DNA from: Acidobacteriota bacterium
GTDB lineage: Bacteria; Acidobacteriota; Thermoanaerobaculia; Gp7-AA8
Length of the DNA: 64,000 bases
Direction: 5' to 3'
Assembly (NCBI GenBank): GCA_021325515.1
Contig: JAJPHC010000013.1
Coordinates: 498,001 to 562,000, forward strand
Shown: positions 4,930-63,983 of the stretch, one piece after another
Position numbering within the stretch: position 1 is the first letter of the stretch
Layout: every line of letters begins with the position of its first letter
Made by a program: the position numbers and the translations under genes
The notes under the pieces: generated by a model
The model's input: the letters and a program-made list of their open reading frames with translations, nothing else
Databases searched by the model: none
Told to the model about the DNA's origin: nothing

Positions 4930-4932
4930 CAC

Positions 4933-10648: not shown

Positions 10649-11704
10649 TCAATTCACCGTCATCCATGACTCGATGGGGTCGGTGGACTTCACGAGATTC
10701 ATCCCGGCGTTGGCGAAGCGGTCGAAGGCCTTCTGTGCGTCGGTGGTGAAGTCGGCCGCGAAGCCGCCGTTGCCGTCGGGCACCGTGACCGCGGACATGC
10801 AGTCGGTCATGATGTAGATGCGGCCGGCGAGCTTCGGATCGTGCGCGACGATCTGGTCGAGGAGATCGTCGATGCTGCTCTTCACGCAATGGCTCGCGGC
10901 CTGACCGGCGATGACGACCGCATCGGAGTCGAGCAGCTTGCGGAGGAACTCCGTGTTCTTCTGCGCCACGCTCCGCCCGTCGTGCGTCACCAGCACTTCG
11001 GGGCTCAACACCGAGTAGTTCTCGGTGAACGGGCTGCCGCCTTTCACTTCGCTCAGCGTCTGGCTGCCGCGCACGAACGAGTGGAAGAGGCGTGCCTCGT
11101 GGATCACCGGCACGAGCGCGTGGCCGTCGCTGCCGAGGAGGCAGTGGTAGGGCCAGAGGTAAAGCTGATACTTGCCGGCCTTCTCGAGCTGTTTGCAGTA
11201 GTGGATGACGTAGTCGAGGAGCCAGGTGTAGTTGCCGCCGGTGTAGAGCGCGGCGACATGCGGATCGGGACGGAGCTCACCGCTGCGGATGTCGTCGGAA
11301 GTGACGAAGCGGAAAGGGGCGGGGTGCCGTCCATCCTTCGTCAGCCAGAACGTCGGCGAGAAGATCTGGTAGGCGAAATGCGTGTCGAGCGTCGTGGTGA
11401 TCTCGGCGATGCGGTCGAGATTGCGGTAGATGAAGCGCGCGATGCGGTCGCTGTCTTCGATCGCGCCGCGCCCGCTGCGGCCGGCGACGTACAGCGAGCC
11501 CTCCGGAAAGCAGAAGTCCTTCTGCACGTCGATGAGAAGAAGGTGCAGGCGGCGTCCGTCGCGCGCAGAGCCTGTGATGCCATGCTGGCGCGACCAGTCC
11601 GGCGCCGCCTGCAGCAGGAGAGCCGGATCCGGCCGGTACGACCAGCTCGCAGCGTTGTTCGAATCGTAGAAGAGCGGGAGCGGCAGCGTCTTAGTGTGGT
11701 TCAT
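10649..11704 (-). CDS. Isochorismatase/nicotinamidase-like cysteine hydrolase
   Basis: The 351-residue product keeps the nicotinamidase fold marks: D59 in LLLIDVQKDF, metal-binding D107-x-H109 (TLDTHF), WPYHC with H187, a Lys at about 221, and nucleophile C273 in AGQAASHCVKSS. It is 120-150 residues longer than typical PncA, with an extra N-terminal 50 residues and an insertion at about 120-180. Family members hydrolyse nicotinamide or related amides. In this Ter-type context the substrate may be a nucleoside-like or pyridine metabolite, which is inference. Its promoter and operator lie immediately upstream, with the predicted transcript start at or within a few bases of the ATG. Confidence 0.82.
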   Translation of the reverse strand: MNHTKTLPLPLFYDSNNAASWSYRPDPALLLQAAPDWSRQHGITGSARDGRRLHLLLIDVQKDFCFPEGSLYVAGRSGRGAIEDSDRIARFIYRNLDRIAEITTTLDTHFAYQIFSPTFWLTKDGRHPAPFRFVTSDDIRSGELRPDPHVAALYTGGNYTWLLDYVIHYCKQLEKAGKYQLYLWPYHCLLGSDGHALVPVIHEARLFHSFVRGSQTLSEVKGGSPFTENYSVLSPEVLVTHDGRSVAQKNTEFLRKLLDSDAVVIAGQAASHCVKSSIDDLLDQIVAHDPKLAGRIYIMTDCMSAVTVPDGNGGFAADFTTDAQKAFDRFANAGMNLVKSTDPIESWMTVN

Positions 11705-11712
11705 ACACGAAC

Positions 11713-11741
11713 AACATAGTGTCGGAATTACACGATGTCAA
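11713..11741 (-). promoter_or_regulatory. Promoter with overlapping operator for the nicotinamidase-VWA operon
   Basis: On the minus strand TTGACA (11736-11741) and TATGTT (11713-11718) are separated by exactly 17 bp. An imperfect palindrome CATAGTGT-N7-ACACGATG (11715-11737, plus-strand reading) covers the spacer and -10 box. The -35 box overlaps the stop codon of the kinase gene. With this -10 position, transcription would start about 2 bases from the ATG at 11704, predicting a leaderless or nearly leaderless mRNA. The palindrome recurs at 13988-14010. Confidence 0.72.
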
Positions 11742-41047: not shown

Positions 41048-44000
41048 ATGGCGGGTCCCCTCGATCGAGAAATCGAATCGAAGTACGAGATCCTCGACAA
41101 AATGGGCGAGGGTGGGATGGGCTCCGTCTACAAGGTCCGTCACCGCCACCTGCAGGACGTTCGCGTCATCAAGACGGCGAAGTATTCCGATAACGAGGCC
41201 GAGAAAGCGCGCTTCTTCAGCGAGGCCCGCCGCGGTTATCAATTCAACCATTCCAGTATCGCCCGCGTCTTCGACTTCGACATCACGAGCAGCGGTACCG
41301 CCTACATCGTCATGGAGTACATCGACGGACTGGACATCCGTCAGGTGCTGGCCAACTCCGGAAACACGATCGAAACGCCCCGTGTGATCGACATTGGCGT
41401 TCAGACTCTCGGTGCTCTTCAATATCTTCACGAACGCGGCCTCGTCCATCGCGACATCTCGCCCGACAACCTGATGTTGACGAAGGATGCCGACAACAAG
41501 CCTCTGATCAAGCTCATCGACCTTGGCATCGCCAAATCGATGGAGGCCTCGCAGAGTCTCACGGTCGCGGGAAAGTTCATCGGCAAGGTTACGTACGCAT
41601 CGCCCGAACAATTCGGCGGCGATGTCGATCAGCGCAGCGATCTTTATTCGCTGGGTGTCGTGATGTACGAGTTGCTCACGGGCGCTCTGCCGTTTCGCTC
41701 CAGCGACTACCGGGCCATCATCGCCGCGCACATTTCGGGCGAGCTGCGCGGATTTGCGCAGACGGATCCCAACGGGCGCGTGCCCCAGAAGCTGCGCGAC
41801 GTGATCATGCGCGCGCTGCAACGCGATCCCGATGATCGTTTTCAGACGGCGGCCGAGTTTGCTGCCGCGCTCCGCGAGGTGGGGAATGTCGAGGCCAGGG
41901 TCGACAAGACTGCGGTCGTCGACATGCAGGATCTGCTGGCGGCGAAGCCTTCACGCTCGGAACAGATCGCGTGGGAAGCGGCGCTCGCGGCCGATTCGCC
42001 GAAGTCGTGGGGCGACTTTCTCAAGAAGTATCCCGGCTCCTCGTTTGCGGCACAGGCGCGCGCGAAGCGCAAGGAGCTCGAGCAGCGCGAGGAGAAGGAC
42101 TACAACGATGCGGCCGCCGCCGACACCGCTGAGGCCTGGAACCGCTTTCTCGAAAAATATCCGGGCTCCGATCTCGCCTCGCGCGCGCGACGGCGGCTGG
42201 AGAACATCGAAGCGGAGGAAGCGGAACGGCGCGCGTTCGAGACGGCCGCGGACGCTGATTCGGTCCGTGCCTGGGAATTGTTCCTTCGCAACTATCCGGA
42301 AGGAGCGGACGCGCCTCGCGCGCGTGATGGCCTTGCGGCGGCGCGGCGCCGTGAAGCCGAAGAGAAGGCGTGGAATGCTGCGTCGCGTGCCGATTCGTCG
42401 AAGTCGTGGCGCGATTTCATCGAGCACCACGCCACCTCGCCGCGCGTCGGAGAGGCGAAGGAGCGCCTCGCGATCGCGGCTGCACGCGAGGAAGAGGAAC
42501 GCGCCTGGAACGCCGCCGCCCGCGCGGACTCGATCGAGGCCTGGCAGAAATATCTCGAGAAATTCGGGCAATCGGAGCGTGCGGAAGAGGCGCGAGAGTT
42601 CCTCGAGCTTCTGCAGCAGCGCGCTGCCGAGGAAGAGGCATGGTCGCGGGCCAGCGAGGAAGAGACCAGCGATGCCTGGCTCGAGTATCTCGAGACCTTT
42701 CCGGCATCGTCTCGGAAAGACGATGCGCGCCGGAGGCTCGATGCCGCGAAGAGGCGTGAACAGGAACAGCATGACTGGATCAGCGCGGGCGCTGCCGATA
42801 CGTCCGCTGCCTGGCGCGAATATCTGGCGAAGCATCCGGATGGCCGCCGGGACGAAGCGAAGCGGCGTCTTGCCGCCGCGGAGTTCGCCGAAGCGGAAGT
42901 GACCGCATGGAATGCCGCAAAGGCGGCTGCGACGGCGGACGCCTGGCGCACATATCTCGCGAGTTTCGCCCAGTCGGATCGTGCGAAGGAGGCGCGGGAG
43001 CGACTCGCCGCTGTCGAGGCCGAGGAGCTTGCCGCCCGCGAGTACGAGGCCGCGGCACGCGAGAACACGGCGGCGGCCTGGAACCGATTCCTGTCGAAAC
43101 ATGCGCAGTCATCGCTTGCGGCTCGTGCTCGCGAACAGCAGGCCACGGCCATGGCACGCGAGAAGGCATGGTCCGACGCAGAGTCGAAGGATACGAGCGC
43201 GGTCTGGCAGGCGTATGCCGATGCGTATCCCGATTCCGCACAGGCGGCCGAAGCGCGCCGGCGGCTTCAGGTCGCGAAGAAACGGGAGCAGGAAGAGCAG
43301 GATTGGCGTGATGCATCGGCGCGCAATACGCCGGCCGCGTGGCGGGACTATTTGTCCAGGCACCCGGACGCTCGTCGTGAAGAAGCAGAGCAGAGGCTCG
43401 AACTTGCCCGCGATGCCGAAGACGAAGCCGGCAGTTGGAAAGCGGCAGAAGAGTCGCGGACGTCGGATGCCTGGCGCGACTATCTGAGCCGGTTCGGATC
43501 GTCGTCACGTGCAGCGCGGGCGCGGGAAAACCTCTCCGCGGCTGAAAAGCAGGAGCAGGCCGCGCGCGATTTCAGCGCCGCGGTTGCCGCTGACACGCCG
43601 CAGAGCTGGAGTGCCTTTCTCGCCGCGCACGGAACGTCGGAGCAGGCGCCCGAGGCGCGGGCGCGTCTCGCTGCGTCGAAGGCACGCGAGCAGGCATGGA
43701 AGAAAGCGGAGAGCGAAGATACGAGCGATGCGTGGCGCGCCTATCTGCGCGTTTATGGCACTGGTGCGCGTTCCGCCGAGGCTAACCAGCGGTTGCAGCT
43801 AGCCGAAGCGCGGGAGCTGGAGATGCGCGGATGGCTTGCCGCGGAGAAGGCCGGCACACCAGCAGGCTGGCGGGAGTATCTGGCGAAGCATCCGGCGGGG
43901 CGCCGGGCCGAGGCCGAGAAACGGCTCGCGCTGGCGGAGCGCGCGGAACGCGAGTTCGAGCGGGCTGCCAAACTGGACACCGCCCAGGGCTGGAAGGAGT

Positions 44001-45721
44001 TTCTTTCCGCTCACGAACAGTCGCCGCTCGAGGACCAGGCACGCAGGGCACTTCATTCTGCAGAGTCGCGGGAGTCGGACTGGACGAAAGCCGAAGTGGA
44101 GGATACGAGCGAAGCCTGGCGGGCATGGCTGCGTATCCATGGCAGTTCATCGCGTGCCGCGGAGGCTAACCAGAGATTGCAGCGGGCCGTAAGCCGCGAG
44201 CTCGAACAGAATGACTGGCTCGCGGCGGAGGAGGCCGGTACACCGGCGGCCTGGCGCGAGTACCTGGCGAAGCATCCGGCGGCGCGCCGGGCCGAGGCCG
44301 AGACGCGGGTGGCCCAGGCGGAGCAGGCGGCGCGCGATTTCGAGCGTGCCTCCACTGTGGATACGGTTGAGGGCTGGAAGGATTTTCTTTCCGCGCACGA
44401 ACGATCGGTGCGGTCGGATGAGGCGCGCAAGGCGCTGGGAATCGCCGAGTCGCGCGAAGCGGCATGGGTCAACGCGGAATCGGAGGATACGAGCGAGGCC
44501 TGGCGAACCTGGCTGCGCCTCTATGGCACCTCACCGCGCGCAGCCGCGGCTAACCAGAGGCTGCAGCTTACCGAAGATCGCGAGGCCGAGCGGCGCAACT
44601 GGCTGGCAGCCGAAAAGCAGAACACGGTGCCGGCCTGGCGCGACTATCTCGCCAAGCATCCAGCGGGACGGGTCGAGGAAGCCAAAGGGCGCCTGCAGGC
44701 TCTCGAACAGATTGCCCGCGATTTCGAGGCGGCGGCCGCCGCCGATACCTCGAAAGGCTGGGACGAGTTCCTCACCGCCCATCCCTCTTCGGAGTTTGCC
44801 GGTGACGCGCGCCGGCGCCTCGCCTCTGCGCGTGACCGCGAGACGGCGCAGGAGCGTGCACAGCGCGAGGCAGAACAGCGCGAGCTGTCGGCGAAGCAGG
44901 CCGCCGAGGCCGCGAGTTCAGCGCTCGGTCAGGGAACGATCGAGGCCCTCGAACAATATCTGAAGGCCTGGCCACGCGCCGCGCAAAGCGATGCGGTCCG
45001 CGCCCGTCTCGATGAACTGCGAGCCGAGAAGAAACAGCGCGACGCCGAAGAGGCCGCGCGGCTGCGCCGCGAGAAGGAACAGAAAGCGGCGGAGGAACGC
45101 GCTGCGAAGGAATCCGCGGCCCGGCTGAAAAAAGAGGAAGCCGATCGCAGGCGCGCCGAAGAAAAGGCGGCCAGGGAACGCGAGCGCGCACTCGCGCGAG
45201 AGAAGGCCGGACAGGAGAAAACAGAGAAGCCGCGTCAGCCGCTGGCGCGGATCATCGGCGCGTCCGCCGCCTCTCTCCTGGTCGTCGGCGCGGCGGTCTA
45301 CTACCTGACGCGCCCGGCTGTGAAGGCTCCGGCCATCACCACGACATCGTCGCAGCCTGTCGTCACCGCGACGACGACACAGTCGGCGGCGCTGGCGACC
45401 ACTCCGTCGATGCCGGCCACGCCACTTCCCGCGGCCGCGCCGGGAACCGGCGAGCTCGTCATCAATGCGCTGCCGTGGGGCGAGGTGAAATCGATTCGCG
45501 ACAACGCGACGAAGACCGAGCGCGTGACCCAGCCGCTTTACACGCCGGTCACGATGAGCCTTCCCGCCGGCGCTTACACCGTCGTCATCACCAATCCCAA
45601 CTCGGGCAAAACGCTGACGCAGACGGTCGTCGTCGAAGCCTCCAGGAGCAAGCGCTTCGAGGCGCCGCTCGACGCGATCGATGCAGACGAATACCTCGCC
45701 CGCGTCGCCCAACCCCAATAG
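41048..45721 (+). CDS. Ser/Thr protein kinase with about 22 tandem repeats, TM helix and PEGA-like tail
   Basis: Residues 1-280 are a complete kinase: glycine loop GEGGMGSVY (20-28), Lys42, HRDISPDNLM, DLG in place of DFG, and an APE-like SPEQ. From about 300 to 1,330 come roughly 22 units of about 43 residues with the core W-x-A-x-DT-x2-AW-x2-YL-x-HP. Units 14-22 form three near-copies of a three-unit super-repeat, so they expanded recently. A Lys/Glu/Arg coiled-coil follows (about 1,330-1,395), one membrane helix (RIIGASAASLLVVGAAVYYL, about 1,402-1,421) and a PEGA-like external domain. The kinase and repeats face the cytosol. Confidence 0.9.
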   Translation: MAGPLDREIESKYEILDKMGEGGMGSVYKVRHRHLQDVRVIKTAKYSDNEAEKARFFSEARRGYQFNHSSIARVFDFDITSSGTAYIVMEYIDGLDIRQVLANSGNTIETPRVIDIGVQTLGALQYLHERGLVHRDISPDNLMLTKDADNKPLIKLIDLGIAKSMEASQSLTVAGKFIGKVTYASPEQFGGDVDQRSDLYSLGVVMYELLTGALPFRSSDYRAIIAAHISGELRGFAQTDPNGRVPQKLRDVIMRALQRDPDDRFQTAAEFAAALREVGNVEARVDKTAVVDMQDLLAAKPSRSEQIAWEAALAADSPKSWGDFLKKYPGSSFAAQARAKRKELEQREEKDYNDAAAADTAEAWNRFLEKYPGSDLASRARRRLENIEAEEAERRAFETAADADSVRAWELFLRNYPEGADAPRARDGLAAARRREAEEKAWNAASRADSSKSWRDFIEHHATSPRVGEAKERLAIAAAREEEERAWNAAARADSIEAWQKYLEKFGQSERAEEAREFLELLQQRAAEEEAWSRASEEETSDAWLEYLETFPASSRKDDARRRLDAAKRREQEQHDWISAGAADTSAAWREYLAKHPDGRRDEAKRRLAAAEFAEAEVTAWNAAKAAATADAWRTYLASFAQSDRAKEARERLAAVEAEELAAREYEAAARENTAAAWNRFLSKHAQSSLAARAREQQATAMAREKAWSDAESKDTSAVWQAYADAYPDSAQAAEARRRLQVAKKREQEEQDWRDASARNTPAAWRDYLSRHPDARREEAEQRLELARDAEDEAGSWKAAEESRTSDAWRDYLSRFGSSSRAARARENLSAAEKQEQAARDFSAAVAADTPQSWSAFLAAHGTSEQAPEARARLAASKAREQAWKKAESEDTSDAWRAYLRVYGTGARSAEANQRLQLAEARELEMRGWLAAEKAGTPAGWREYLAKHPAGRRAEAEKRLALAERAEREFERAAKLDTAQGWKEFLSAHEQSPLEDQARRALHSAESRESDWTKAEVEDTSEAWRAWLRIHGSSSRAAEANQRLQRAVSRELEQNDWLAAEEAGTPAAWREYLAKHPAARRAEAETRVAQAEQAARDFERASTVDTVEGWKDFLSAHERSVRSDEARKALGIAESREAAWVNAESEDTSEAWRTWLRLYGTSPRAAAANQRLQLTEDREAERRNWLAAEKQNTVPAWRDYLAKHPAGRVEEAKGRLQALEQIARDFEAAAAADTSKGWDEFLTAHPSSEFAGDARRRLASARDRETAQERAQREAEQRELSAKQAAEAASSALGQGTIEALEQYLKAWPRAAQSDAVRARLDELRAEKKQRDAEEAARLRREKEQKAAEERAAKESAARLKKEEADRRRAEEKAARERERALAREKAGQEKTEKPRQPLARIIGASAASLLVVGAAVYYLTRPAVKAPAITTTSSQPVVTATTTQSAALATTPSMPATPLPAAAPGTGELVINALPWGEVKSIRDNATKTERVTQPLYTPVTMSLPAGAYTVVITNPNSGKTLTQTVVVEASRSKRFEAPLDAIDADEYLARVAQPQ

Positions 45722-47974: not shown

Positions 47975-48017
47975 TATGACTTCCCTTCAGCAAGTGGTCG
48001 GTCGTCGAGGAGGTCCG

Positions 48018-49529
48018 GTGGGCAGTCCGAGGCGCAATCTTTCGTTGCGTGACGCCGTGGTGGCAACACTGCTGGTGTACGCGGTAGTCGCAGTCCCGGC
48101 GATGGCCAGCTCTCTCGAGCTGAACCTGAGAATGAAGTTCTACCGGAATGGCGCGCAGGCCACGACGCTGCTCGATGGAACTGTTCTGATTACGGGCGGA
48201 TATTCCGGCCGCACGGCGGAAATCTGGAATGGCAATACACGGACATTTACAGCAGTCGGGCGGATGGCTTATTACAGACAACGTCATACGGCGACTCTTC
48301 TCGACGACGGCACAGTCCTGATTGTGGGAGGCGCTGGAACCTATCCGGCCGAGATCTACGATCCGAATTTGCAGACCTTTTCGACGATCTCCTATCCGTT
48401 TGTCAGCGTCGGCCCTTTCGCATCGGCAACGAAGCTCAATAACGGCAAAGTATTGATCGCGGGAGGGGACGCCAGCACCAATAAAGCTCAAATCTACGAT
48501 CCAGGTCCGAAGACGTTTACCGCGACGGCCAACGATATGATCTTTTCCCACTCCGGGCACAGCGCAACCCTGCTGTGCGACGGCACGGTTCTCATCGCCG
48601 GAGGCAGCTACTGTCCTAACTGCTCCGGCAGCACCGGCAGTCCGAATGCGGAGATCTATGATCCCAACACCAACAGCTTCAGTCCGATGAATCCCCTCGA
48701 TCCGTATGCCCCGGTGATGACCGCTTCCCGTGTACTGCATACTGCGACACGAATCTCGTGCTCACAGGTGTTGTTATTCGGCGGCGAGAATGGCGCCTCG
48801 GGCTCGCCGTTTGCCAGCGGCGAGCTTTACGACGTGAATGCTCATACGTTTTCCCACATTAGCGAGCTCGATCCGCCTGCTTACTATCTGCAGCCGGCTT
48901 TCGATCACGCCGCATTCCTTCTGGATGATGGCGACGTCTTGTTCATCACGCAGAACTACCAACCCTTCCTGAGATACAGACCTTCAACCAAGTCCATCAC
49001 CGTCGAGCCGTTGTCAGGGTCGTTCTACCCCTACAACTACGCCCGAGCCACCGCCGCGTACCCTTCGACTGGTGACTGCGGCGGTTGCCCATCGGGGATG
49101 AAGATTCTCGTCGCCGGTGGGGGAAACCTCCAGGGCAATTCGTCCACGATCGACGCCTTTGTCTGGGTTCCGACGAACATGTCGCCCCCGCCTCCGACTC
49201 TGACCGCCATTACACCGTTGTTCGGACGCACTTGTGGCGGCACAAGCCTCACGATCGACGGCGCCAATTTTCAGACAGGCGCCCGTCTCAGTTCCGCGAC
49301 GACCGATACGGTGACACCGACTCGCGTCACGGGGACGACGACCGCACAGTCGGCTGGTATGACTACCATCTCTGTCTTCAACCCCGACGCGCAATACGGC
49401 TCGATCGCCTTTGAGTTTCGCGCCGTGCAGTCCGGCGATGCGAACGGCGATGGAGTTCTCGATTTGAACTCCGACACACGATACATGTGCCAATACTTGT
49501 ACGCTGGCGGCCCGCCACCGGTGAACTGA
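48018..49529 (+). CDS. Secreted Kelch-repeat protein with IPT and dockerin-like C-terminus
   Basis: The GTG at 48018 follows GAGGAGGT (48007-48014) and gives a signal peptide (RDAVVATLLVYAVVAVPAMA); an ATG at 47976 is alternative. Kelch blades with TLLDDGTVLIVGG, TLLCDGTVLIAGG and similar cores span residues about 30-370. An IPT/TIG domain (LTAITPLFGRTCGGTSLTI) follows, and the last 30 residues contain one calcium-loop unit GDANGDGVLDLNSD of dockerin type, ending GGPPPVN. It is a paralogue of the next gene. Its partner may be a cohesin-like domain in the nearby proteins. Confidence 0.82.
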   Translation: MGSPRRNLSLRDAVVATLLVYAVVAVPAMASSLELNLRMKFYRNGAQATTLLDGTVLITGGYSGRTAEIWNGNTRTFTAVGRMAYYRQRHTATLLDDGTVLIVGGAGTYPAEIYDPNLQTFSTISYPFVSVGPFASATKLNNGKVLIAGGDASTNKAQIYDPGPKTFTATANDMIFSHSGHSATLLCDGTVLIAGGSYCPNCSGSTGSPNAEIYDPNTNSFSPMNPLDPYAPVMTASRVLHTATRISCSQVLLFGGENGASGSPFASGELYDVNAHTFSHISELDPPAYYLQPAFDHAAFLLDDGDVLFITQNYQPFLRYRPSTKSITVEPLSGSFYPYNYARATAAYPSTGDCGGCPSGMKILVAGGGNLQGNSSTIDAFVWVPTNMSPPPPTLTAITPLFGRTCGGTSLTIDGANFQTGARLSSATTDTVTPTRVTGTTTAQSAGMTTISVFNPDAQYGSIAFEFRAVQSGDANGDGVLDLNSDTRYMCQYLYAGGPPPVN

Positions 49530-49532
49530 CTC

Positions 49533-51002
49533 ATGACTAGAAGAACGATTGCAGTGCTTGCACTCTGTGCGGTGGCACACCTGGCGAGGGGCGCGTCGAT
49601 CGAACCGCCAGGATCGGTTCAGATGCGTTGGGGCCGCGGCGGCGCGGCGGCCGTAACGTTGAATGACGGCCGGGTGGTCATTTTCGGAGGAAACCAATAT
49701 ACGGGGTGCAATCCGGAAGGCTGCGACGCCGAGATCTGGAACCCGGCCTCGAAGACCTTTACAACGGTCACGGCATCGATGAACGACGGGCCGCGCAGCA
49801 GGCTTACTGCCACATTACTCGACAATGGAACGGTCCTGATCGTAGGTGGCGACTCGTACCCGTCTTATTACACGTCTGAGATTTTCAATCCCGGCGACAA
49901 TTCGTTCACTCGAACGACCGGAAATCCGGTTGCGCCGCGCGGTGGTCACACCGCGACAAAGCTGAGTGACGGCAAGGTCCTCATCGTCGGCGGAGATTAT
50001 TCGGGGAGCGCCGAAATCTACGACCCGAATGCACAATCCTTTACCGCGACTTCCGACTCACCACTCGCTGGTCACACCGACCATACCGCGACGGTCCTGT
50101 GTGACGGGAAGGTTCTGATCGCCGGCGGATTCTCCCGCACTGCCGATCTCTACGATCCGGTAACTGCGAGTTTCCGGACCTCGTTCCTTCCCCCTATGGT
50201 CCGTGCGCGGCACGGCCATACAGCGAACCTCTTGTCGTCCTGTAAGGTGCTGTTGCTGGGCGGCGACGCCCGCTATCCGGCGACGTCGGAGCTCTACGAT
50301 CCCTCCGCCGGGGGATTCTTCGTGTCCGGCCCGAGCGACAACACCTATCGTAACTACCATGTTGCCGTGACGCTTGACGACGGAAAAATCGTAATCGCGG
50401 GTTCGAGTTTCGACACGAGCTCTGGCAGTTCCCGGGTCCTCGAGCTCTATGACCCCATCGCGAACACCTTTTCAGTCCTGCCCATCAGCGAGAGTTATGG
50501 TTTTTATCCAAGAGTCTTTGCGGCAAGTTATCCCGACGTTGCGAACTGCAACGGCTGCCCGTCCGGACACAAGGTTCTGATCGCAGGCGGCGGCCCTTCG
50601 TCGAATGGCTATCCATTAGGCTTTATTTTCGTTCCCACAGCGATGTCGCCACCTCCGCCCGTGGTAACTGCCGTGAGTCCGGCAACTGCACGCACTTGCG
50701 GCAATACGACCGTGACTGTCGATGGCCTGAACTTTCAGGCTGGCGCAACCCTTGGATATTCTTTCAATGCACCAACGTCGGTGACCGCGACGAGAATCGT
50801 TGCGACCACAAAGGCGGCGAGTCCGGGGACCTTCTCGTTGACTGTAACCAATCCTGATTCACAATTCGGGTACAAGGACAATTCCTTCACGTTCGTCCAA
50901 TACCCGCCGGGAGATGTCAACGGCGATGGAATCCTTTCGCCGCTCGACATCTTCTATATGACGCTCTATGTGAACCACAATGGTCCGGCCCCGCTCAATT
51001 GA
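49533..51002 (+). CDS. Secreted Kelch-repeat protein with IPT and dockerin-like C-terminus (paralogue)
   Basis: The signal peptide is MTRRTIAVLALCAVAHLARG. Kelch blades (TLNDGRVVIFGG, KLSDGKVLIVGG, TVLCDGKVLIAGG and others) fill residues about 25-370. The IPT domain begins VTAVSPATARTCGNTTVTV, and the C-terminus has GDVNGDGILSPLDIFYMTLY, a cleaner dockerin-type EF-hand loop, ending GPAPLN. The Asp, Asn and Gly positions are complete. The stop codon lies in the palindrome CGCTCAATTGAGCG (50992-51005), next to the convergent cohesin-like gene. Confidence 0.84.
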   Translation: MTRRTIAVLALCAVAHLARGASIEPPGSVQMRWGRGGAAAVTLNDGRVVIFGGNQYTGCNPEGCDAEIWNPASKTFTTVTASMNDGPRSRLTATLLDNGTVLIVGGDSYPSYYTSEIFNPGDNSFTRTTGNPVAPRGGHTATKLSDGKVLIVGGDYSGSAEIYDPNAQSFTATSDSPLAGHTDHTATVLCDGKVLIAGGFSRTADLYDPVTASFRTSFLPPMVRARHGHTANLLSSCKVLLLGGDARYPATSELYDPSAGGFFVSGPSDNTYRNYHVAVTLDDGKIVIAGSSFDTSSGSSRVLELYDPIANTFSVLPISESYGFYPRVFAASYPDVANCNGCPSGHKVLIAGGGPSSNGYPLGFIFVPTAMSPPPPVVTAVSPATARTCGNTTVTVDGLNFQAGATLGYSFNAPTSVTATRIVATTKAASPGTFSLTVTNPDSQFGYKDNSFTFVQYPPGDVNGDGILSPLDIFYMTLYVNHNGPAPLN

Positions 51003-55075: not shown

Positions 55076-56407
55076 TCAGAAGCGCTTCAGTGCGGAGAGG
55101 GACGCAGTCCTGGCCAGCGAGGAGTGATCGTAGGCCGCGTTGATCTCGAACGAAGGCGCGATGTAGCCGACACCGAAGGCGATGTGATTCTGCGCCTTTT
55201 CACCCGGATATCTGAATGCGGAGTACTGCATTGCTGCCTTTTCGAAAGGGTCCGAGCTCGTCGTCGGTCCACGATAACGCAGCGTGTGATCCGGATCGTG
55301 CCACCATCCGGCACGAAGTGCGAACGGAATCCGTGCGGCAGGGAACGCCCATTCACCGCCCAGATGAATTTCATTTACGTCTGGAATGTCGAATCCCAGA
55401 CTGGTGGCGGGTTTACAGATCGAAGCCCCGGCACAGAATTCGGCTGGCTCAAAGTGCTTTAGCAGCCGGCTGTATTGCACATGAACGACATCGGCGTTCA
55501 AAGTGACGCCCGGCGCCGGGCGGATAGATACGCCGGCGCCGTATTGCGTTGGCACTTCAAAACTCGATGGGAGCGCGTTTGCTGATGTGCAACGCTCTGA
55601 CGCCGAATTTGGATTGCACTCTTTGACGGAATAGTCCGAGCCTGACTTATAGACGGCTCCGACGCTGAAGTTCTCCGATTGCGAGGCCCATTTCCATCCG
55701 GCCGTGTATGCATACTGTGTATCGCTTCCTTCAATTCTGCCGAAGAGAGTGGGCGATGGCGAGCCCTTGACGATGGAACCACCGGAGAGCGCAACGTCGT
55801 AATCAGCGAACGTTGAAATCCCTTTGAATCGTTGCCGCCGTGCACTCAGACCGAATGACATCTGGCCCAGCTTCCAGGCTCCGCTGACGCCAAAGGCTTC
55901 GGTCTTGTAATGAACGGAGAAGTTTCCGGGAGCGTCGCCAAAAAAGAACTGCTGACCGGCGACCGTGCCCAGAACACCGTTTCCTGTACTCAGGGACGCG
56001 CTCTGTTGGTAATCAAATGGGCGCGAGTAGTAGAGCGCGATGGTGGAGTGTCCCGAGGGGAATACGACGCTGAAAAACGAGGGCGTGGTGTGCTGGTCGG
56101 AAACCTTGATCTGGCCTCCTGTCGAACCAGCGATACCGAACGGGACCTTTTCAGCGTAGTCGAGTTGCCGCAACTCGAAGGTGACCTCCGGTTTCACAAT
56201 GACAGTGAGGCCGGCGGGATTCGCCTCCGCGGCGGATGCGTCGTCGGCGCGGCCGATGAATGCTCCGCCCATTCCGAGCGACCGCGCACCCGGAAAGCTG
56301 AAGTTGAACTGCAGGCTCCGTTGCAGGGGAGTGAGATCGAGATTTGCCCCGAATGCCGGCACAGTGAAGAAGACGAAGAGAAGGGTGCTGCTGAGCCACT
56401 TTGACAT
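55076..56407 (-). CDS. Outer-membrane beta-barrel protein, FadL/PorV-like
   Basis: The signal peptide (SKWLSSTLLFVFFTVPAFG) precedes NFSFPGARSLGMGGAFIGRADDASAAEANPAGL, the N-terminal pattern of OmpP1/FadL and PorV-type barrels. Amphipathic strands follow with a cluster of two Cys pairs (CNPNSASERC and CAGASIC) in exposed loops. The C-terminus ends SLSALKRF with a terminal Phe, the barrel-assembly signature. A PorV-like member could help place secreted proteins such as its neighbours on the surface, but a transport role is equally possible. Confidence 0.8.
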   Translation of the reverse strand: MSKWLSSTLLFVFFTVPAFGANLDLTPLQRSLQFNFSFPGARSLGMGGAFIGRADDASAAEANPAGLTVIVKPEVTFELRQLDYAEKVPFGIAGSTGGQIKVSDQHTTPSFFSVVFPSGHSTIALYYSRPFDYQQSASLSTGNGVLGTVAGQQFFFGDAPGNFSVHYKTEAFGVSGAWKLGQMSFGLSARRQRFKGISTFADYDVALSGGSIVKGSPSPTLFGRIEGSDTQYAYTAGWKWASQSENFSVGAVYKSGSDYSVKECNPNSASERCTSANALPSSFEVPTQYGAGVSIRPAPGVTLNADVVHVQYSRLLKHFEPAEFCAGASICKPATSLGFDIPDVNEIHLGGEWAFPAARIPFALRAGWWHDPDHTLRYRGPTTSSDPFEKAAMQYSAFRYPGEKAQNHIAFGVGYIAPSFEINAAYDHSSLARTASLSALKRF

Positions 56408-56458: not shown

Positions 56459-57307
56459 ATGATGGTGTCCGTGTCACACACACGTCCTCTTGCCGTCGCG
56501 ATCCTCCTTCTTGGAGCCGTTGCGCTGCGCGCCGATTACCGCAGCGACTTTCGGAATGGCATCCGTGCTTACAGCAAAAAGGACTGGCCGGCGACGATTG
56601 ACAGCATGCGCAAGGCGATCGCGCAAAACTCCACCGAGTCCACGGAGCGGATCATTATCTCCGGCACCTGGTATGTTGCCTACACGCCGCATTTCTATCT
56701 CGGCGTTGCACTCGCCGAGTCGAAACGTTGTGACGAGGCAAGGCCGGAGCTTGCGAAGTCGGAGGCGCAGGGCATCATCCAGAAATTCGAGGCAGTCGCG
56801 CTGAAGAAGACGCGCGACGCCTGCGGTCCAGCACCGCAGCTCACTCCTCCTCTGACTGCGTCCGCTGCGCCGGCGACCACGACCACGACGCAGAGCGCGG
56901 AAACCCACGCGCCGGCGACCGCGCCACCGCCGGTCACCGCGACGATCGCCGCCGTCAGTACGCAGCCTGCACCTCAGACCACGAGCTCCGCATCCGCCGC
57001 GGCCTCGCGTCCGCAGCCGCCGGTGAATCTCGCCGAGGCCGTACGTGCCTATGCGCGAGGCGAGTATCAGCGTGCGATCACGCTGCTCGCGGCGAGTACG
57101 ACGAACGAACGCGTCTACAAAGCGCAGGTCGCGCTATTCCGTGGGGCGTCCCGCTATTCGCAATTCCTCGCTGCCGGCGGCACGAACACGAGTCTGAAAA
57201 GGCAGATCATTGCCGACGTGCTCGAATATCGCGGTCTCGACAAGCGGCCCGTCGATCCGCGGCTGTTCAGTCCGCGATTCCGTGACTTCGTGGCCAACCC
57301 TCATTGA
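56459..57307 (+). CDS. Exported TPR-like protein with Thr/Ala/Pro linker
   Basis: The N-terminus has a signal peptide (RPLAVAILLLGAVALRA). The mature protein has a TPR-like domain (DFRNGIRAYSKKDWPATIDSM, residues about 25-110), a low-complexity Ala/Thr/Pro linker (about 120-185) and a second short TPR-like domain (LAEAVRAYARGEYQRAITLL). A TAGAAT -10-like box overlaps the first ATG (56455-56460), so the real start may be the GTG at 56465 or 56471. It precedes the DUF4388-FHA gene by 15 bp and should be in the same operon. Confidence 0.7.
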   Translation: MMVSVSHTRPLAVAILLLGAVALRADYRSDFRNGIRAYSKKDWPATIDSMRKAIAQNSTESTERIIISGTWYVAYTPHFYLGVALAESKRCDEARPELAKSEAQGIIQKFEAVALKKTRDACGPAPQLTPPLTASAAPATTTTTQSAETHAPATAPPPVTATIAAVSTQPAPQTTSSASAAASRPQPPVNLAEAVRAYARGEYQRAITLLAASTTNERVYKAQVALFRGASRYSQFLAAGGTNTSLKRQIIADVLEYRGLDKRPVDPRLFSPRFRDFVANPH

Positions 57308-57322: not shown

Positions 57323-58384
57323 ATGCAAGTGATCCTTCAGGGCAGTTTCGGACATTTCCCGCTCGACCAGCTGCTCACCTTCTTCTCGACCTTTACGCAC
57401 ACGGGCGCACTCGAGATCCTTTGTGACGATCGCCGAGGACGTGTTTTCTTTCAGGACGGGGCGGTCATACACGCGGAGAGCAGCGCTGCTCCCGACGCAC
57501 ACGCGGTGCTCGACGACATGTTCGTCTGGCCAGGAGGCACGTTCAGCTTCTCGGCCGGCGTGGTTTTGCCGGAAGGGATCGCTCGAGCGACGATCGACAT
57601 CGATGCCGTCATTCAGGCCGGGCTGGCACGCGCCGCCGAGTGGCGAAGCCTGATGACGCTCTACCCGAGCGAAGACGTCATTCTTCGCGTGATCGAGAAT
57701 CCGGAGTCCGAAGCGCAGATCAGCCTCACCGGTGACGAGTTCCGCATTCTGATGAAGATCGGCGCCCAGCGGACGCTGCGGCAGTTGCGCAATGATCTGA
57801 ACCGCCCCGCGGCGGAGCTCTATCCCCTTGTGCATCGCCTGGAGACGAGCGGGCTGATTGCGCGCGAAGAGCCGCAGGAGAGTATCCAGACACTGCGCAA
57901 TTTCGATCTGCCCGACAATGGTGCTCAGACGACCGTCGTGCCCCGGATCACACGGGTGCCGCCGCCGACGGCCCCTCAACCAGACGCTGCACCCGCGCTT
58001 CCGCAGGAACCGGAGCTCACACAGCCGAAATTGGCGGCTCCTTCGGAGATTGGCGGCCCGGAAACCGAGTTGCTTGTGGGAAGCCTGACGCTTGCCAACG
58101 GTTCCGTGTTTCCTCTCGTCGATCCGTCGTATGAGATCGGGCGCGATGTCAAGAACGATATCGCCATCCACGATGCCAGCGTTTCGAGCCAGCATGCTCG
58201 CATTGTGCGCGATCAGCATGGGTTCGTCATCGAGGACACGAAGAGCCGGAATGGCACGTACGTCAATGGCGAGAAGATCACCGGTCCGCGCACACTCGCC
58301 GACGCGGACGTCGTGAGGCTTGGCAAAATCGTCATGACGTTCCACGTCGCGAGAAAAGTCATCACGCGCGAGCGGACGAACTAG
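57323..58384 (+). CDS. DUF4388 (PatA-like) and FHA domain protein
   Basis: The N-terminal DUF4388/PatA-like domain (MQVILQGSFGHFPLDQLLTF to about 110, with GRVFFQDGAVIHAE) is common in gliding and signalling proteins. A winged-helix-like middle (about 130-190) and Pro-rich linker lead to a C-terminal FHA domain (about 265-340) with intact phosphothreonine marks: EIGRDVKNDI, SVSSQHARI, KSRNGTYVNG. It should read Thr phosphorylation, perhaps by the repeat kinase encoded 11 kb upstream. It is cytosolic and sits just before the electron-transfer operon. Confidence 0.85.
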   Translation: MQVILQGSFGHFPLDQLLTFFSTFTHTGALEILCDDRRGRVFFQDGAVIHAESSAAPDAHAVLDDMFVWPGGTFSFSAGVVLPEGIARATIDIDAVIQAGLARAAEWRSLMTLYPSEDVILRVIENPESEAQISLTGDEFRILMKIGAQRTLRQLRNDLNRPAAELYPLVHRLETSGLIAREEPQESIQTLRNFDLPDNGAQTTVVPRITRVPPPTAPQPDAAPALPQEPELTQPKLAAPSEIGGPETELLVGSLTLANGSVFPLVDPSYEIGRDVKNDIAIHDASVSSQHARIVRDQHGFVIEDTKSRNGTYVNGEKITGPRTLADADVVRLGKIVMTFHVARKVITRERTN

Positions 58385-58446
58385 ACATCGACCTCCGGGC
58401 TTCTCTTCGTCTCCCCGTAAAACGCCGGCAACCCGCTGAGTTGTCC

Positions 58447-58468
58447 TGCACGAGCTCCCGCTCGTGCA
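58447..58468. repeat. Palindrome TGCACGAGC-TCCC-GCTCGTGCA
   Basis: A perfect 9-bp stem with a TCCC loop lies in the 161-bp spacer between the FHA gene and the reductase gene. TTGACT (58471-58476) follows it; no convincing -10 is seen. It may be a REP-like unit or attenuator. Confidence 0.5.
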
Positions 58469-58545
58469 CCTTGACTTGATCACTTCTTAATGGAATCCTC
58501 ACCGAGCCTCACTACACGACTGCTGAGAAGAGTTTTCGCTCGCTC

Positions 58546-60921
58546 ATGGACGCATACGATCTGCTGATCGTCGGTTCCGGACCGGCTGGGCTGGCAACCG
58601 CCGCACATGCCCAGGCCAACGGTCTCAGTTATCTCCTGCTCGAGCGAACGGATCACCTCGCCGACACCATCTACAACTATCAGGCGCGCAAGGCCGTCAT
58701 GGCCGAGCCGATGATCATTCCGGCGCGCGGCGATCTTCCTTTCAATGCCGGCTCGCGCGAATCCGTACTCGGCGCGTGGGACAAGTACGTCGCCGATCAC
58801 AAGCTCAGTGTCGAGTATTCCGCCGAAGTGAAATCGTTGAAGCGTGGCGACGTCTTCACCGTCAAGACCTCGGCCGGCAAGGAGTACAGCGCAAAGAAGG
58901 TCGTGCTGGCGATGGGCACGCAGGGCAATCCGCGCAAGCTCGGTGTTCCCGGCGAAGACATGCCTCACGTTCTCTACCGGCTGGCCGATGCGGCCGAATA
59001 TCAGGATCGCGATCTGCTCGTCGTTGGCGCGGGCGACTCGGCGCTGGAGATCGCGATTGCGCTCTCCGAAGACAATCGCGTCGGCCTCGTCGTTCGTGGC
59101 ACGGAGATCACGCGCGCCAACGAGATTCTCACGAAGGAGATCCTGCAGCGCGCCGCGCGCGGTCAGATCAACGTCTACTACAGCGCGAACGTCAAACAGG
59201 TCTACGAAGGCGAAGCCGATCTGAGTGTGCGTGGCGAACTGACGCGCGTCGCAGCCGAGGTGATCTTCCTCAAGCTCGGTGCCGATGCTCCGCGAAAATT
59301 CTTCGAAGCCTGCGGGATCCGGTTCACCGGTGAAGGGAAAGATGCGCGCCCCGTGCTGACGGACAAGCACGAAACGAACGTTCCCGGTCTCTATCTGATC
59401 GGCGCGGCGAGCGGCCGCGATCTCATCAAGCTGGGGATGAACCAGGGCTTCGAAGTCGTCGAGCACATCATGGGCCGCGACGTCGAACCGGCCGATGAAC
59501 AGATCCTGCGCGAACGCCTGCCGTTCTGGGAAGGCACCGTTTCCCAACGCATCGCTGCACTTCGGGAACGGGTGCCGATTCTCGCCACCGCTGCCGAGCC
59601 TCAACTGCGCGACATGTTTCTGGGCGCACGCGTGCAGGAGTATCGCGACGGCGAGGTCATCTTCCAGCAGAACGACTACACGAGCGATTTCATGATCATC
59701 GCCGCGGGGCGTGTTCAGCTCTACCGCGTCCGCGAAGATACGAATCAGGCCGTGCTCGTCGGCGAGCTCACGGCGGGCAATTTCTTCGGCGAGCTGAGTC
59801 TGATTTCGGGACGCCGCCGTCCGCACACAGCCCGGGCCATCGCTCCCACCCGCCTGCTCGTCATTCCCCGCAGGGCGATTCTCAAGCTTCTCGCGTCGGC
59901 ACCGCGTGCAAAGCTGCTCGTCGACCAGGCATTCCTGCTGCGGGCATTTCGCGAATACCTCTTTCCTTCGATTCCGGAGTCTGTGCTCGGAGAGCTGGTC
60001 GACATCGCGGAGGTAGTGCAGTTTCCCAAGAACGCGGTGATCTTCAAGGAGGGCGATCCCGCCGATGCCTTCTATCTGATTCGCAACGGCATGGTGAAGA
60101 TCTCCAAAAGATCAGGAGAAAAGGAAGTCGTGCTGTCCTATCTCGTCGCCGGCAACTTCTTCGGCGAGGCTGCGCTCTATTCGCACATGACACGGACCGC
60201 GACCGTGACGACGATCTTCCCCTGCGACCTGATCGTGCTCTCCAGCAAATCGTTCGAGAAGTTCATGAACCGCAATCCCGAATTGCGGGACATTCCGCTC
60301 AAGAAGCTGGAGGAGAACAGGATTGCGTCCTTGATGGCGGAGGGGACACCGGGGTCGGGAAACATCCTCGCCGATCTGATCCGGGAAGAAGTCATCATGG
60401 GGACGCAGACGCTGCTCATCGATGAGCATCGCTGTATCCGCTGCGGCAATTGCGTGAGCGCATGCGAAGGGGTTCATGCCGATGGACAGGCCCGCCTCTC
60501 GCTCACCGGCATCAAGTTCTACAACCTGCTGGCGCCGAATTCCTGCTGGCAGTGCGAGAACCCTCTCTGCATGCTCGATTGTCCGCCCGACGCGATTCAG
60601 CGCGATCCGCGGGGTGAGGTCTACATCAAGAGCAATTGCATCGGCTGTGGCAACTGTGAGCGCAATTGTCCTTACGGCAACATTTTCATGGTTCACAAGG
60701 AACCGAAGAAGTCGCTTTTTGCGTGGGTCAAGGCGCTTTTCAAGAAGGAGCAGCAGCCGGAAATGGAACAGACGGTTGCCGTGAAATGCGACCTCTGCCG
60801 GGAGATCAGCGGCGGTCCAGCCTGTGTACGGCACTGTCCGACGGGAGCGGCGATTCGACTTACGCCTTCTGAATACAAGGAAGTCCTCGAGGAGATCGTC
60901 ATCAGCCGGGGAGAGCGTTGA
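58546..60921 (+). CDS. FAD/NAD(P) reductase fused to two cNMP-binding domains and a four-cluster ferredoxin
   Basis: Residues 1-320 form a thioredoxin-reductase-like flavoprotein: FAD GSGPAGLATA (about 10-19), NAD(P) VGAGDSALEIA (about 161-171), and an FAD-closing VPGLYLIGAA. The TrxR CxxC is absent. Two cyclic-nucleotide-binding domains follow (about 350-460 and 475-590), each with GNFFGE-type phosphate cassettes lacking the usual RTA Arg in one copy. The C-terminus (about 620-791) has four [4Fe-4S] sites: CIRCGNCVSAC, CWQCENPLCMLDC, CIGCGNCERNC, CDLCREISGGPACVRHC. It should move electrons from NAD(P)H to the membrane partners under small-ligand control. Confidence 0.9.
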   Translation: MDAYDLLIVGSGPAGLATAAHAQANGLSYLLLERTDHLADTIYNYQARKAVMAEPMIIPARGDLPFNAGSRESVLGAWDKYVADHKLSVEYSAEVKSLKRGDVFTVKTSAGKEYSAKKVVLAMGTQGNPRKLGVPGEDMPHVLYRLADAAEYQDRDLLVVGAGDSALEIAIALSEDNRVGLVVRGTEITRANEILTKEILQRAARGQINVYYSANVKQVYEGEADLSVRGELTRVAAEVIFLKLGADAPRKFFEACGIRFTGEGKDARPVLTDKHETNVPGLYLIGAASGRDLIKLGMNQGFEVVEHIMGRDVEPADEQILRERLPFWEGTVSQRIAALRERVPILATAAEPQLRDMFLGARVQEYRDGEVIFQQNDYTSDFMIIAAGRVQLYRVREDTNQAVLVGELTAGNFFGELSLISGRRRPHTARAIAPTRLLVIPRRAILKLLASAPRAKLLVDQAFLLRAFREYLFPSIPESVLGELVDIAEVVQFPKNAVIFKEGDPADAFYLIRNGMVKISKRSGEKEVVLSYLVAGNFFGEAALYSHMTRTATVTTIFPCDLIVLSSKSFEKFMNRNPELRDIPLKKLEENRIASLMAEGTPGSGNILADLIREEVIMGTQTLLIDEHRCIRCGNCVSACEGVHADGQARLSLTGIKFYNLLAPNSCWQCENPLCMLDCPPDAIQRDPRGEVYIKSNCIGCGNCERNCPYGNIFMVHKEPKKSLFAWVKALFKKEQQPEMEQTVAVKCDLCREISGGPACVRHCPTGAAIRLTPSEYKEVLEEIVISRGER

Positions 60922-60924
60922 CGC

Positions 60925-61752
60925 ATGCCGGTCGCGCGCAGTGGGCGCTTATGGCGCGTGATCTTTGCGGTCCTCCTCGTGACCGTGGTCGCCGTCTATT
61001 TCCGGCAGGCGCGAGACGGCTTTCCGCACGGCGGTTCGCCCATCGGTCTCTTTTATGGAACGCTCGGATATCTGTTGATTCTCCTTTTGGCGTTCTTCGG
61101 AATCCGAAAGCGCTGGTATCGATCGCGTCTGGGAACGCTCGAGAGCTGGCTTCAGTCGCACATCTATCTCGGCGTACTCGTGTTGATCATTCTTCTGCTG
61201 CACACGGGCGGCCGCTTTCACGACACGATTGCGGTGGCCACTCTGGCACTCGTGGCAATCGTCGTATTGAGCGGAATCTTCGGAGCGATTCTGTACGTGA
61301 CGATTCCCCGCGTCCTGACGGAAGTCGAAACGAACCTCACTCTCGAGCAGATCTCGGAACAGTTGAATCAAATGGCAAAGTCGATGGCGCGCGTCGCTTC
61401 AGGACGCTCGCAGCCCTTTCAGAGGATTCACGATCAACTGATCCGCGAGTCGACTCCCGGTGCCTTTGCAGGCTGGCGTCTGCTTTTCTCATCGACACGC
61501 CATAAGAACCAGACTCCCTCCGACTGGGCCAATCTCCTCGGTCTCGTTCCCCGCGCCGAACAGGATGATCTGCGGCAGCTCCTCGTCGTGTCGCGGCAGC
61601 GAAAGGAATTGCTGATCCGCTTACGCTTTCAGCAGAAGTACAAGAATCTGCTGGAGGCATGGCTGTATGTCCATGTTCCCTTCACGATCGCTTTGATCGT
61701 TTTCGCAATTGCGCACATTGCTGCGGTCTTCTATTACGGACAGGTGCAATGA
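60925..61752 (+). CDS. Di-heme cytochrome b-like membrane protein
   Basis: The 275-residue protein has about five membrane helices: 10-27, 42-60, 77-94, 102-125 and 247-270. Four His lie at matched spacing: H79 and H93 in helix 3, H250 and H264 in the last helix, as for two b-type hemes stacked between the two helices. A soluble middle (about 130-240) is cytosolic and contains basic residues. It starts 3 bp after the reductase and overlaps the decaheme gene as ATGA, so the three proteins are probably made in fixed ratio. It would carry electrons from the Fe-S domain across the membrane. Confidence 0.82.
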   Translation: MPVARSGRLWRVIFAVLLVTVVAVYFRQARDGFPHGGSPIGLFYGTLGYLLILLLAFFGIRKRWYRSRLGTLESWLQSHIYLGVLVLIILLLHTGGRFHDTIAVATLALVAIVVLSGIFGAILYVTIPRVLTEVETNLTLEQISEQLNQMAKSMARVASGRSQPFQRIHDQLIRESTPGAFAGWRLLFSSTRHKNQTPSDWANLLGLVPRAEQDDLRQLLVVSRQRKELLIRLRFQQKYKNLLEAWLYVHVPFTIALIVFAIAHIAAVFYYGQVQ

Positions 61753-63983
61753 CGTTCGTCGTACAGCGGATCGAAGGACGGGCCGCGGTCCTCAATCAGT
61801 TTCAGACTGACGTCCTGCGCATAGGCCGCGGGACGAACTGCGAGCTCCGTTCGGAAAATCCGGCTGTTGCACTGCTGCACGCGCAGATCGAGGCCAGTGC
61901 AAGCGGGTACACGATCGTTGATAAGGGGAGTGTCACCGGGACGTATGTGAATCGCAGGCCGGTCGAGTCGGCGCCGGTGGCAAAGGGCGATGTCATCGAG
62001 GTCGGCGATCTGATCCTCGAAGTTCAGTTGGCCGATCCCGCGAAGCCGATGTTCCTGCGCATCACGACGCAGAGCCAGACTGCTGCGGTGTCCGCTTCGA
62101 TCGAGGCCGCCCCGCAGGCCGCCGATCTGCCGGCCGGACGTGCGATCAAGGCGGAACGCATTGACTACGCACTGGCGTTTCGTCTGCGCCGCCCCTACCT
62201 GACCAAAGTCGCGGTGACGAGCCTTCTGCTCATCATCACATTTGCTGTAATCGGCGAGCTCGCTCTTCCCGAGCGACAGACGCTCTTCATGCCGGGCGGC
62301 GTGTCGTCGGCGCATTCGCGCGCGCGCGATGTCCGGGATCAGCCGATCGCAAAAAATTGCGGCGCCTGCCATGATCCCTGGAACGGCGTCAACGAGGCGA
62401 AATGCAAGTCGTGTCATGGCCGTGCACCGCACGCAGATCGCGAACGAACTCCGCCAGCCTGCACCTACTGCCATGCCGAGCACCGCGCGCAGCCGAAGCT
62501 GGCAATGGTTCCCGATCTGAAGTGCACGGCGTGCCACGCGGATCTGATGCGCCACATTGCCGGCAGCGAACCGCCGCGCATTCCGGCGCGCATTACCGGC
62601 TTCGGTCTGGAACATCCCGAGTTCAAGCCGATCGCCGATGCCGATTCGCTGCGTTTCAACCATAAGCTGCACCTGCGCAAGACGGGTATCCTCAATGGAC
62701 GAGGTCAGCGCGAGATTCTCACGTGCGCACTGTGCCATAAGCTGACTGACACAAGAGGGAGAGTCGATCCTGCGCCATTGCGATTCGCGACGGCGTGTCA
62801 GCGCTGTCATACGCTCACGTTCGATCCTCGATTTCCCGATGCCGAAGTGCCGCACGGCGGTGATCCGGGACTGGTGTACGGATACATCGTCACGACCTAT
62901 GCCGGAAACCGCGAGATTGCCGGGAAGTCGCCGGAGGAGATCCGGCGCATTCTCACGACGCGTCCGCCGTCCACTGTCGATGAGCGGGCCTTGTTGAATG
63001 CCGAGCAGGTCATCAGGACGAAGTGCCAGCTCTGTCATCAGATCGAGCGCCGCGGGACGCGGCTTGCGGCAGTCGTTCCGATTCTTCCCGGAACGTGGCT
63101 ACAGCGTGCGGCGTTCTCGCACACATCTCATACCAACATGGACTGCGAGACGTGCCACGACCGGGCGCGGAACAGCACGGCAACAGCGGACGTGCTGATT
63201 CCGTTGCAGAGCGCCTGTGTTTCCTGTCATGGACCGAAGTCGGTGAAGATTCCAAGTTCGTGCGTTACATGTCACGTGTATCATGTCCGCTCCAGGCTCT
63301 TGAGAACGCACGCGGCGGTGGGCGGGCTGGGCAGCGCCCCCGCGATGTCACCAACCGGGGATTTGACGGGAATGCTGCAGACAGTACTTCTATACGCGAT
63401 CGTGATCCTGATGCTGGTCGTCCTGATCCCGGTGGCGCTTGCATTATTTACGAGACTGCGTGCGCCGAAAGGGCCAGCGGCCCCGCCGGCACCGCCGGCT
63501 CCGGTGACGCGAGTCCGCGCCGCGCCGTCGCCTGCACCGCCGTCCGGCGCGGATCCGGCCCGGAAACCTCAACCAGCCGCTGCACCCGCTGCGGTTCCAA
63601 CAGCGGATTCGACGCGGCTCATTGACGTTCCTCCCGAACCATCAGCACCCGCCGGTCCGGAGGCCACGGCGATGGTGGAGTGGTATGGCATGCTGACCTG
63701 CACGTCGGGGCCGCTCGAGGGACAGCGGTTCATCGTTGAAGAAGAAGGCCTCTGGATAGGGCGCGATCCTCAATTCGCACAAATCGTCATCAATGACTCA
63801 CGAATCTCCAAGAGGCATGTGCGAATCGTCCCGCGCAACGGGAAGGTCCATGCCATCGATGTAGAATCCACCAACGGAACGTTCATTGACCAGGTCGGTG
63901 AGAGAATCACCGACGTCCAGCTGAAAAAGGGCAACACGATCATCCTGGCCGACAACGCGGCTTCATTCCTCTATCAATTGTGA
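61749..63983 (+). CDS. FHA-TM-decaheme cytochrome c-TM-FHA protein
   Basis: The ATG at 61749 overlaps the previous stop. Residues 1-95 are an FHA domain (RIGRGTNCEL, TGTYVN, where the binding Ser and Asn are replaced); one membrane helix (153-172); ten CxxCH heme sites from CGACH (204) to CVTCH (about 505); a second helix (LQTVLLYAIVILMLVVLIPV, about 540-560); a Pro/Ala linker; and a complete C-terminal FHA domain (GRDPQFAQI, SRISKRHVRI, STNGTF). The hemes are periplasmic and both FHA domains cytosolic. This architecture is not one I recognise. Confidence 0.9.
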   Translation: MTFVVQRIEGRAAVLNQFQTDVLRIGRGTNCELRSENPAVALLHAQIEASASGYTIVDKGSVTGTYVNRRPVESAPVAKGDVIEVGDLILEVQLADPAKPMFLRITTQSQTAAVSASIEAAPQAADLPAGRAIKAERIDYALAFRLRRPYLTKVAVTSLLLIITFAVIGELALPERQTLFMPGGVSSAHSRARDVRDQPIAKNCGACHDPWNGVNEAKCKSCHGRAPHADRERTPPACTYCHAEHRAQPKLAMVPDLKCTACHADLMRHIAGSEPPRIPARITGFGLEHPEFKPIADADSLRFNHKLHLRKTGILNGRGQREILTCALCHKLTDTRGRVDPAPLRFATACQRCHTLTFDPRFPDAEVPHGGDPGLVYGYIVTTYAGNREIAGKSPEEIRRILTTRPPSTVDERALLNAEQVIRTKCQLCHQIERRGTRLAAVVPILPGTWLQRAAFSHTSHTNMDCETCHDRARNSTATADVLIPLQSACVSCHGPKSVKIPSSCVTCHVYHVRSRLLRTHAAVGGLGSAPAMSPTGDLTGMLQTVLLYAIVILMLVVLIPVALALFTRLRAPKGPAAPPAPPAPVTRVRAAPSPAPPSGADPARKPQPAAAPAAVPTADSTRLIDVPPEPSAPAGPEATAMVEWYGMLTCTSGPLEGQRFIVEEEGLWIGRDPQFAQIVINDSRISKRHVRIVPRNGKVHAIDVESTNGTFIDQVGERITDVQLKKGNTIILADNAASFLYQL

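Follow-up and report, generated by a model that had tools for sequence, protein, structure and literature searches.

TPR-bearing Ser/Thr kinases of Planctomycetota and myxobacteria combine a Hanks-type kinase domain with a long array of helix-pair repeats and often one transmembrane (TM) helix. In planctomycetes these arrays are mostly periplasmic, and the TPR-bearing kinases of 'Ca. Uabimicrobium amorphum' carry up to 15 TPRs per protein (PMC11032199). The PASTA kinases (PknB/StkP/PrkC) are laid out as kinase, juxtamembrane region, TM segment and extracytoplasmic domain; their juxtamembrane region is a disordered linker, and deletion of the juxtamembrane domain of StkP impairs the phosphorylation of some substrates (PMC12077195). 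PknG of Actinobacteria, a soluble kinase, has a short C-terminal solenoid of the TPR type, and this TPR scaffold tunes the phosphorylation of the FHA substrate OdhI (PMC8546545).

We analysed a 64,000-nucleotide stretch of an Acidobacteriota genome (contig JAJPHC010000013.1; hereafter the window, in which positions are counted) and found a predicted single-pass membrane Ser/Thr kinase of the HRD-[IV]-S subfamily, with its TM segment assigned from hydrophobic sequence, in which an array of TPR-like units lies between the kinase domain and the membrane segment. This protein is a long example of the already known TPR-bearing bacterial kinases and is unusual in its length. Its features are as follows.

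41048..45721, plus strand: complete open reading frame of 1557 aa, in the order kinase, array, charged helix, TM-like segment, C-terminal domain
41084..41845, plus strand: Hanks-type Ser/Thr kinase domain of the HRD[IV]S subclade, residues 13-266 (PF00069 at 2e-44; motifs)
41960..44845, plus strand: 22 TPR-like units in tandem (the array), 41-45 aa each (unit alignment, profiles, structure model)
44900..45022, plus strand: degenerate unit 23, residues 1285-1325, preceded by an 18-residue spacer (scores with the array's own profile and the family profile)
45023..45247, plus strand: E/K/R-rich stretch immediately before the TM-like segment, predicted with low confidence as one long helix (composition, single-sequence model)
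45251..45310, plus strand: single hydrophobic TM-like segment, residues ~1402-1421, IIGASAASLLVVGAAVYYLT (sequence, alignment)
45452..45718, plus strand: small PEGA-like C-terminal domain with an A-x-PW motif, presumed periplasmic (BLAST to paralogues and to the relative G018)

The kinase domain scores 152 bits with PF00069 against a cut-off of 31.7 (E 2e-44), and its catalytic motifs are complete (GEGGMG loop, VIK lysine, HRDISPDN, DLG and SPE), which places it among the Hanks-type Ser/Thr kinases and bears out the kinase call made by an earlier, sequence-only reading of this DNA. The lysine of HRDxK is replaced by serine, as in other HRD[IV]S members. The protein has the general layout of the PASTA kinases but falls outside them since NF033483 matches its kinase half at 239.5 against a cut-off of 450; a Pfam scan found no PASTA domains in it, and where those kinases have a disordered linker it has a 960-residue folded array. 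It also departs from PknG, which shares a kinase with a TPR-type solenoid, in that its array leads into a TM-like segment and then another domain, the units number 22, and an FHA substrate is only a candidate.

The TM-like segment aligns with those of array-less paralogues and of G018, and the C-terminal domain is related by BLAST to the paralogue own138 (4e-10), G018 (7e-9) and the paralogue own135 (1e-7). This domain appears to resemble PEGA at a level below the Pfam cut-off: a Pfam scan gave no match to PF08308 (cut-off 20.8) in this protein, and the homologous domains score 16.5 (own138), 15.3 (own135) and 12.6 (G018), all below that value. Since the kinase requires ATP and no TM-like segment lies N-terminal of the array, the repeats are probably cytosolic, as the earlier reading had held, whereas the arrays of TPR-bearing kinases are C-terminal and mostly periplasmic.

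The 22 units follow one another head to tail from residue 305 to about residue 1266. A8, W17 and A33 are invariant in all 22; position 13 is threonine in 18 and serine in four, L21 is kept in 20 and L37 in 19, and an aromatic residue occupies positions 5 and 20 in 22, while D12 (14 units), H24 (12) and P25 (11) are less conserved. A profile built from the array's own units gives each of them 46-61 bits and a profile widened with relatives 31-49 bits, and Tandem Repeats Finder gives the last part of the array a score of 969; together, these scores exclude a chance origin. The degenerate 23rd unit reaches 5 bits with the former profile and 27 bits with the iterated, widened one. The count of 22 tandem repeats and the invariant tryptophan in the earlier description thus stand, but the motif that it gave as YL-x-HP was wrongly spaced and reads Y-L-x-x-H-P. 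The array is rich in alanine (23%) and charged residues (19% Asp+Glu, 17% Lys+Arg). Conservation across units lies mainly at presumed core positions (5, 8, 13, 17, 20, 21, 33, 37 and 40) and the other positions mostly vary, a pattern that would fit a scaffold for several partners or a plain stalk and not one ligand bound 22 times.

The solenoid proposed from the sequence was supported by structure prediction of units 10-13, for which four other stretches of the same array served as the alignment: the model (pLDDT 96.4) is a continuous alpha-solenoid of regularly alternating ~10- and ~27-residue helices. A 1117-residue model that takes in the whole array, built from the single sequence (pLDDT 67, pTM 0.30), is too poor to reveal the array's shape. 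The best solved matches to the four-unit model in Foldseek are the TPR proteins BamD and YbgF; they are weak (E 0.02), with a TM-score by query length of at most 0.28 among the matches listed. A single unit superposes on the YbgF TPR (2xev) at 1.2 A over 45 residues. We read the modelled unit as a pair of TPR-like helices, the second of them extended by two to three turns. BamD/YfiO and YbgF (CpoB) are thus similar in unit sequence and local fold, but they have 34-residue units in place of the 41-45 residues and lengthened second helix seen here, and BamD belongs, as a lipoprotein, to the outer-membrane assembly machine.

Curated models do not recognize these units. No Pfam TPR model matches the protein up to E 1 or array segments up to E 10, and with 41-45 residues the units are not TPRs of the 34-residue kind. 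The BamD/YfiO model TIGR03302 matches five stretches (1.8e-7) at 30.9 against a cut-off of 81.4, and the BamD model PF13525 scores 16.7 against 25, although the homologue in the relative G001 passes at 32.8. We therefore rejected assignment of the array to a known Pfam or NCBIfam repeat family, as none reaches its cut-off, and a sequence search for solved homologues returned nothing beyond CpoB at E 0.35. Compared with the TPR-bearing kinases, then, the array is longer (22-23 units), its units are 41-45 residues long, and Pfam TPR models leave it unmatched. Repeat proteins with 42-residue TPR-like units reportedly also have lengthened units and high internal identity, as here.

Much of the array is built from larger blocks, which we label by unit class (A to D).

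42629..43156, plus strand: units 6-9, first four-unit block A-B-C-D (unit alignment, lag identity)
43157..43684, plus strand: units 10-13, second four-unit block A-B-C-D, modelled at pLDDT 96 (alignment, lag identity, model)
43685..44068, plus strand: units 14-16, three-unit block A-B-D, C lost (Tandem Repeats Finder, alignment, lag identity)
44069..44452, plus strand: units 17-19, three-unit block A-B-D (alignment, lag identity)
44453..44845, plus strand: units 20-22, three-unit block A-B-D (alignment, lag identity)

Within units 14-22, identity is 62% at lag 3 against 31-34% at lags 1, 2, 4 and 5, so the three-unit super-repeat that the sequence-only reading recognized is real. That reading overlooked an older, four-unit super-repeat, in which units 6-9 and 10-13 are 47% identical at lag 4. 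Identity is 51% within a class and 35% between classes, a separation that 20,000 label shuffles never equalled; this supports rather than proves the classes because the labels were picked after viewing the identity matrix. On the simplest reading, unit C would have been lost before the three-unit block multiplied. The claim that these blocks are near-copies from a recent expansion did not survive: the three A-B-D blocks are 73, 61 and 62% identical in nucleotides, with dS of 0.81, 1.56 and 1.45, dN of 0.22-0.39 and dN/dS of about 0.26, values that indicate old duplications and purifying selection on the units. We therefore rejected a recent origin (dS 0.8-1.6), while growth of the array by in-register internal duplication is supported.

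To place the array among its relatives, we searched 19 genomes of the order with a two-unit profile. Eight of them have such units, all in kinase genes except for one weak lone match. As the earlier reading had anticipated, repeat number varies, from 2 to 13 detectable units in relatives (G008a 13, G001 12, G018 11, G015 7, G008b 7, G010 6, G004 3, G013 2) against 23 here, counts that include some partial matches and may miss divergent units. This protein belongs with the family in which an HRD[IV]S kinase domain is followed by these TPR-like units. The catalytic domains of the relatives' array kinases are 54-86% identical to each other. G018, which represents another family of the order, has after its array both a TM-like segment and a homologue of the C-terminal domain, while in G001, G008, G010, G013 and G015 the open reading frame ends with the array and has neither. 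In G004 (L049:8729-10343) the array kinase lies in two overlapping frames, one with the kinase and one with the units, through a frameshift or an assembly error.

The array occurs once in its own genome, against 67 kinase matches. In a tree built from the kinases of this genome together with the array kinases of relatives, every array kinase belongs to the HRD[IV]S group (support 100/97), which also takes in four own paralogues that lack the array. A single array-kinase clade is compatible with the data (p-AU 0.52), but the tree does not show one. Since own135 and own138 lack the array but retain the TM-like segment and the A-x-PW domain, the array is a module that may be there or missing at this place, between the kinase and the membrane segment. 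Two paralogues without an array in this genome, at L151:1913-3475 (C61) and L152:2330-4270 (C16), have an N-terminal zinc ribbon besides the same TM-like segment and A-x-PW domain.

The units of this protein have a mean mutual identity of 37%, and 20 of the 23 find their best match within the protein, unlike those of relatives, which match the units at equivalent positions in other species better than one another, with within-protein means of 23-33% and best cross-species pairs of up to 81%; the expansion is thus lineage-specific, although old. The unit itself is widespread, as judged by short matches in varied proteins across a 396-genome sample of the phylum: lipoprotein-like and formylglycine-generating enzyme-like proteins, and the region that follows the TM segment in an unrelated kinase. 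The unrelated HRDIKP kinase of G222 (L058:865-3237) has a few similar units after its TM segment and a PEGA-like stretch, which presumably puts them across the membrane. A search for orthologues in genome contigs and plasmids returned just one- or two-unit stretches within other proteins, and viral contigs returned none. In gut bacteria (L001-L006, one titled Spirochaetales), small proteins carry a single unit of this kind, preceded by an N-terminal hydrophobic stretch and followed by two more hydrophobic segments.

We next considered partners encoded nearby, and one gene in the window is a candidate.

57323..58384, plus strand: DUF4388-FHA protein, candidate partner, whose homologue adjoins the array kinase in G004 and G013

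This gene opens an operon-like run (57323-63980) that continues with a FAD/two-cNMP/4Fe-4S fusion, a TM protein and an FHA-multihaem cytochrome c; its FAD gene is 73-75% identical in seven relatives. The run joins a phospho-reader domain to electron transfer. FHA domains bind phospho-threonine, which makes a relation with the kinase reasonable. In G013 and G004 the array kinase lies immediately upstream of the DUF4388-FHA gene and on its strand, about 25 bp away in G013; in the window it is also upstream, at a distance of 11.6 kb. The FHA link draws on two genomes from a single genus and on this loose linkage. The array kinase of G018 has homologues of 55079-56407 and 56459-57304 as neighbours. 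The FHA gene occurs without an array kinase in G009 and G017, and in G008 and G015 the two genes are on separate contigs, which leaves the link weak to moderate. FHA-type T-x-x-[DILV] sites are hardly present in the array, with 2 in 962 residues in a motif scan. By analogy, the FHA proteins of the redox operon are at that strength the most plausible named candidate partners.

Other parts of the window hold further genes of note. A block at 69-6555 (plus strand) looked phage-derived on reading, and only its first open reading frame matches phage families (phrog_17834 at 4e-12; tail proteins at 2e-6). At 9880-13366 (minus strand), translations read as a von Willebrand-type protein, an isochorismatase-like hydrolase and a kinase-like protein lie adjacent, and at 47976-51002 are two adjoining Kelch-repeat-type proteins with a short EF-hand/dockerin-like end (GDxNGDG).

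Our preferred explanation, to which we give about an even chance, is that the TPR-like array is a juxtamembrane scaffold or stalk, one that keeps the kinase at a distance from the membrane and brings in partners. The earlier reading had likewise proposed, as possible uses of a solenoid, the binding of many partners or a measure of distance to the membrane. The C-terminal domain would sense something across the membrane, the array would space the catalytic domain from it, and the long heterogeneous surface of the array may recruit regulators or substrates, with the FHA-domain proteins of the neighbouring redox operon as candidate recruits by analogy with PknG. Array length would change through in-frame recombination between units, and the scaffold would tolerate such change.

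The foremost alternative is a passive stalk, in which array and charged helix do no more than fix how far from the membrane the kinase can reach, as a distance ruler, and bind nothing specific. The restriction of conservation between units mainly to presumed core positions, the highly variable unit number among homologues and the way that the array runs into a charged helix before the TM-like segment are all consistent with it. However, since the open reading frames of G001, G008, G010, G013 and G015 end with the array, it is not solely a membrane stalk in most relatives, and we consider this reading unlikely.

Neutral growth, in which recombination among similar units lengthened the array and length itself is unselected, we regard as improbable. 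Close homologues do differ greatly in length (the kinase domains of G013 and G008a are 77.5% identical, in open reading frames of 464 and 928 aa), and strong internal expansion is seen in this genome alone. On the other hand, the low dN/dS between old blocks and a 22-unit frame that stayed open over a long divergence argue that the units themselves are under selection; they do not argue the same for unit number. A clustering device, in which the arrays of several kinase molecules pack laterally and drive trans-autophosphorylation, draws on the possibility that long Ala-rich charged helices associate side by side, and we give it little probability. That the unit count is an artefact of collapse or false duplication, which the sequence-only reading had named as a threat to its claim, is very unlikely even in a 63-contig assembly, because the array lies inside a 627-kb contig and the most similar blocks differ at 27% of bases, enough for ordinary reads to distinguish the copies.

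Returning to the scaffold reading, a bolder version of it would be that evolution adjusts how far a membrane kinase reaches and how many docking sites it offers by duplicating three- or four-unit blocks, and that the kinase controls a conserved redox operon through FHA proteins; this is improbable enough that we offer it as speculation. The family nonetheless offers a natural length series on homologous kinases, with no array, 2-7, 11-13 or 22-23 units and with or without a membrane anchor, in which the array-less paralogues are natural no-array controls. With such a series, one can test directly what juxtamembrane length and docking surface contribute.
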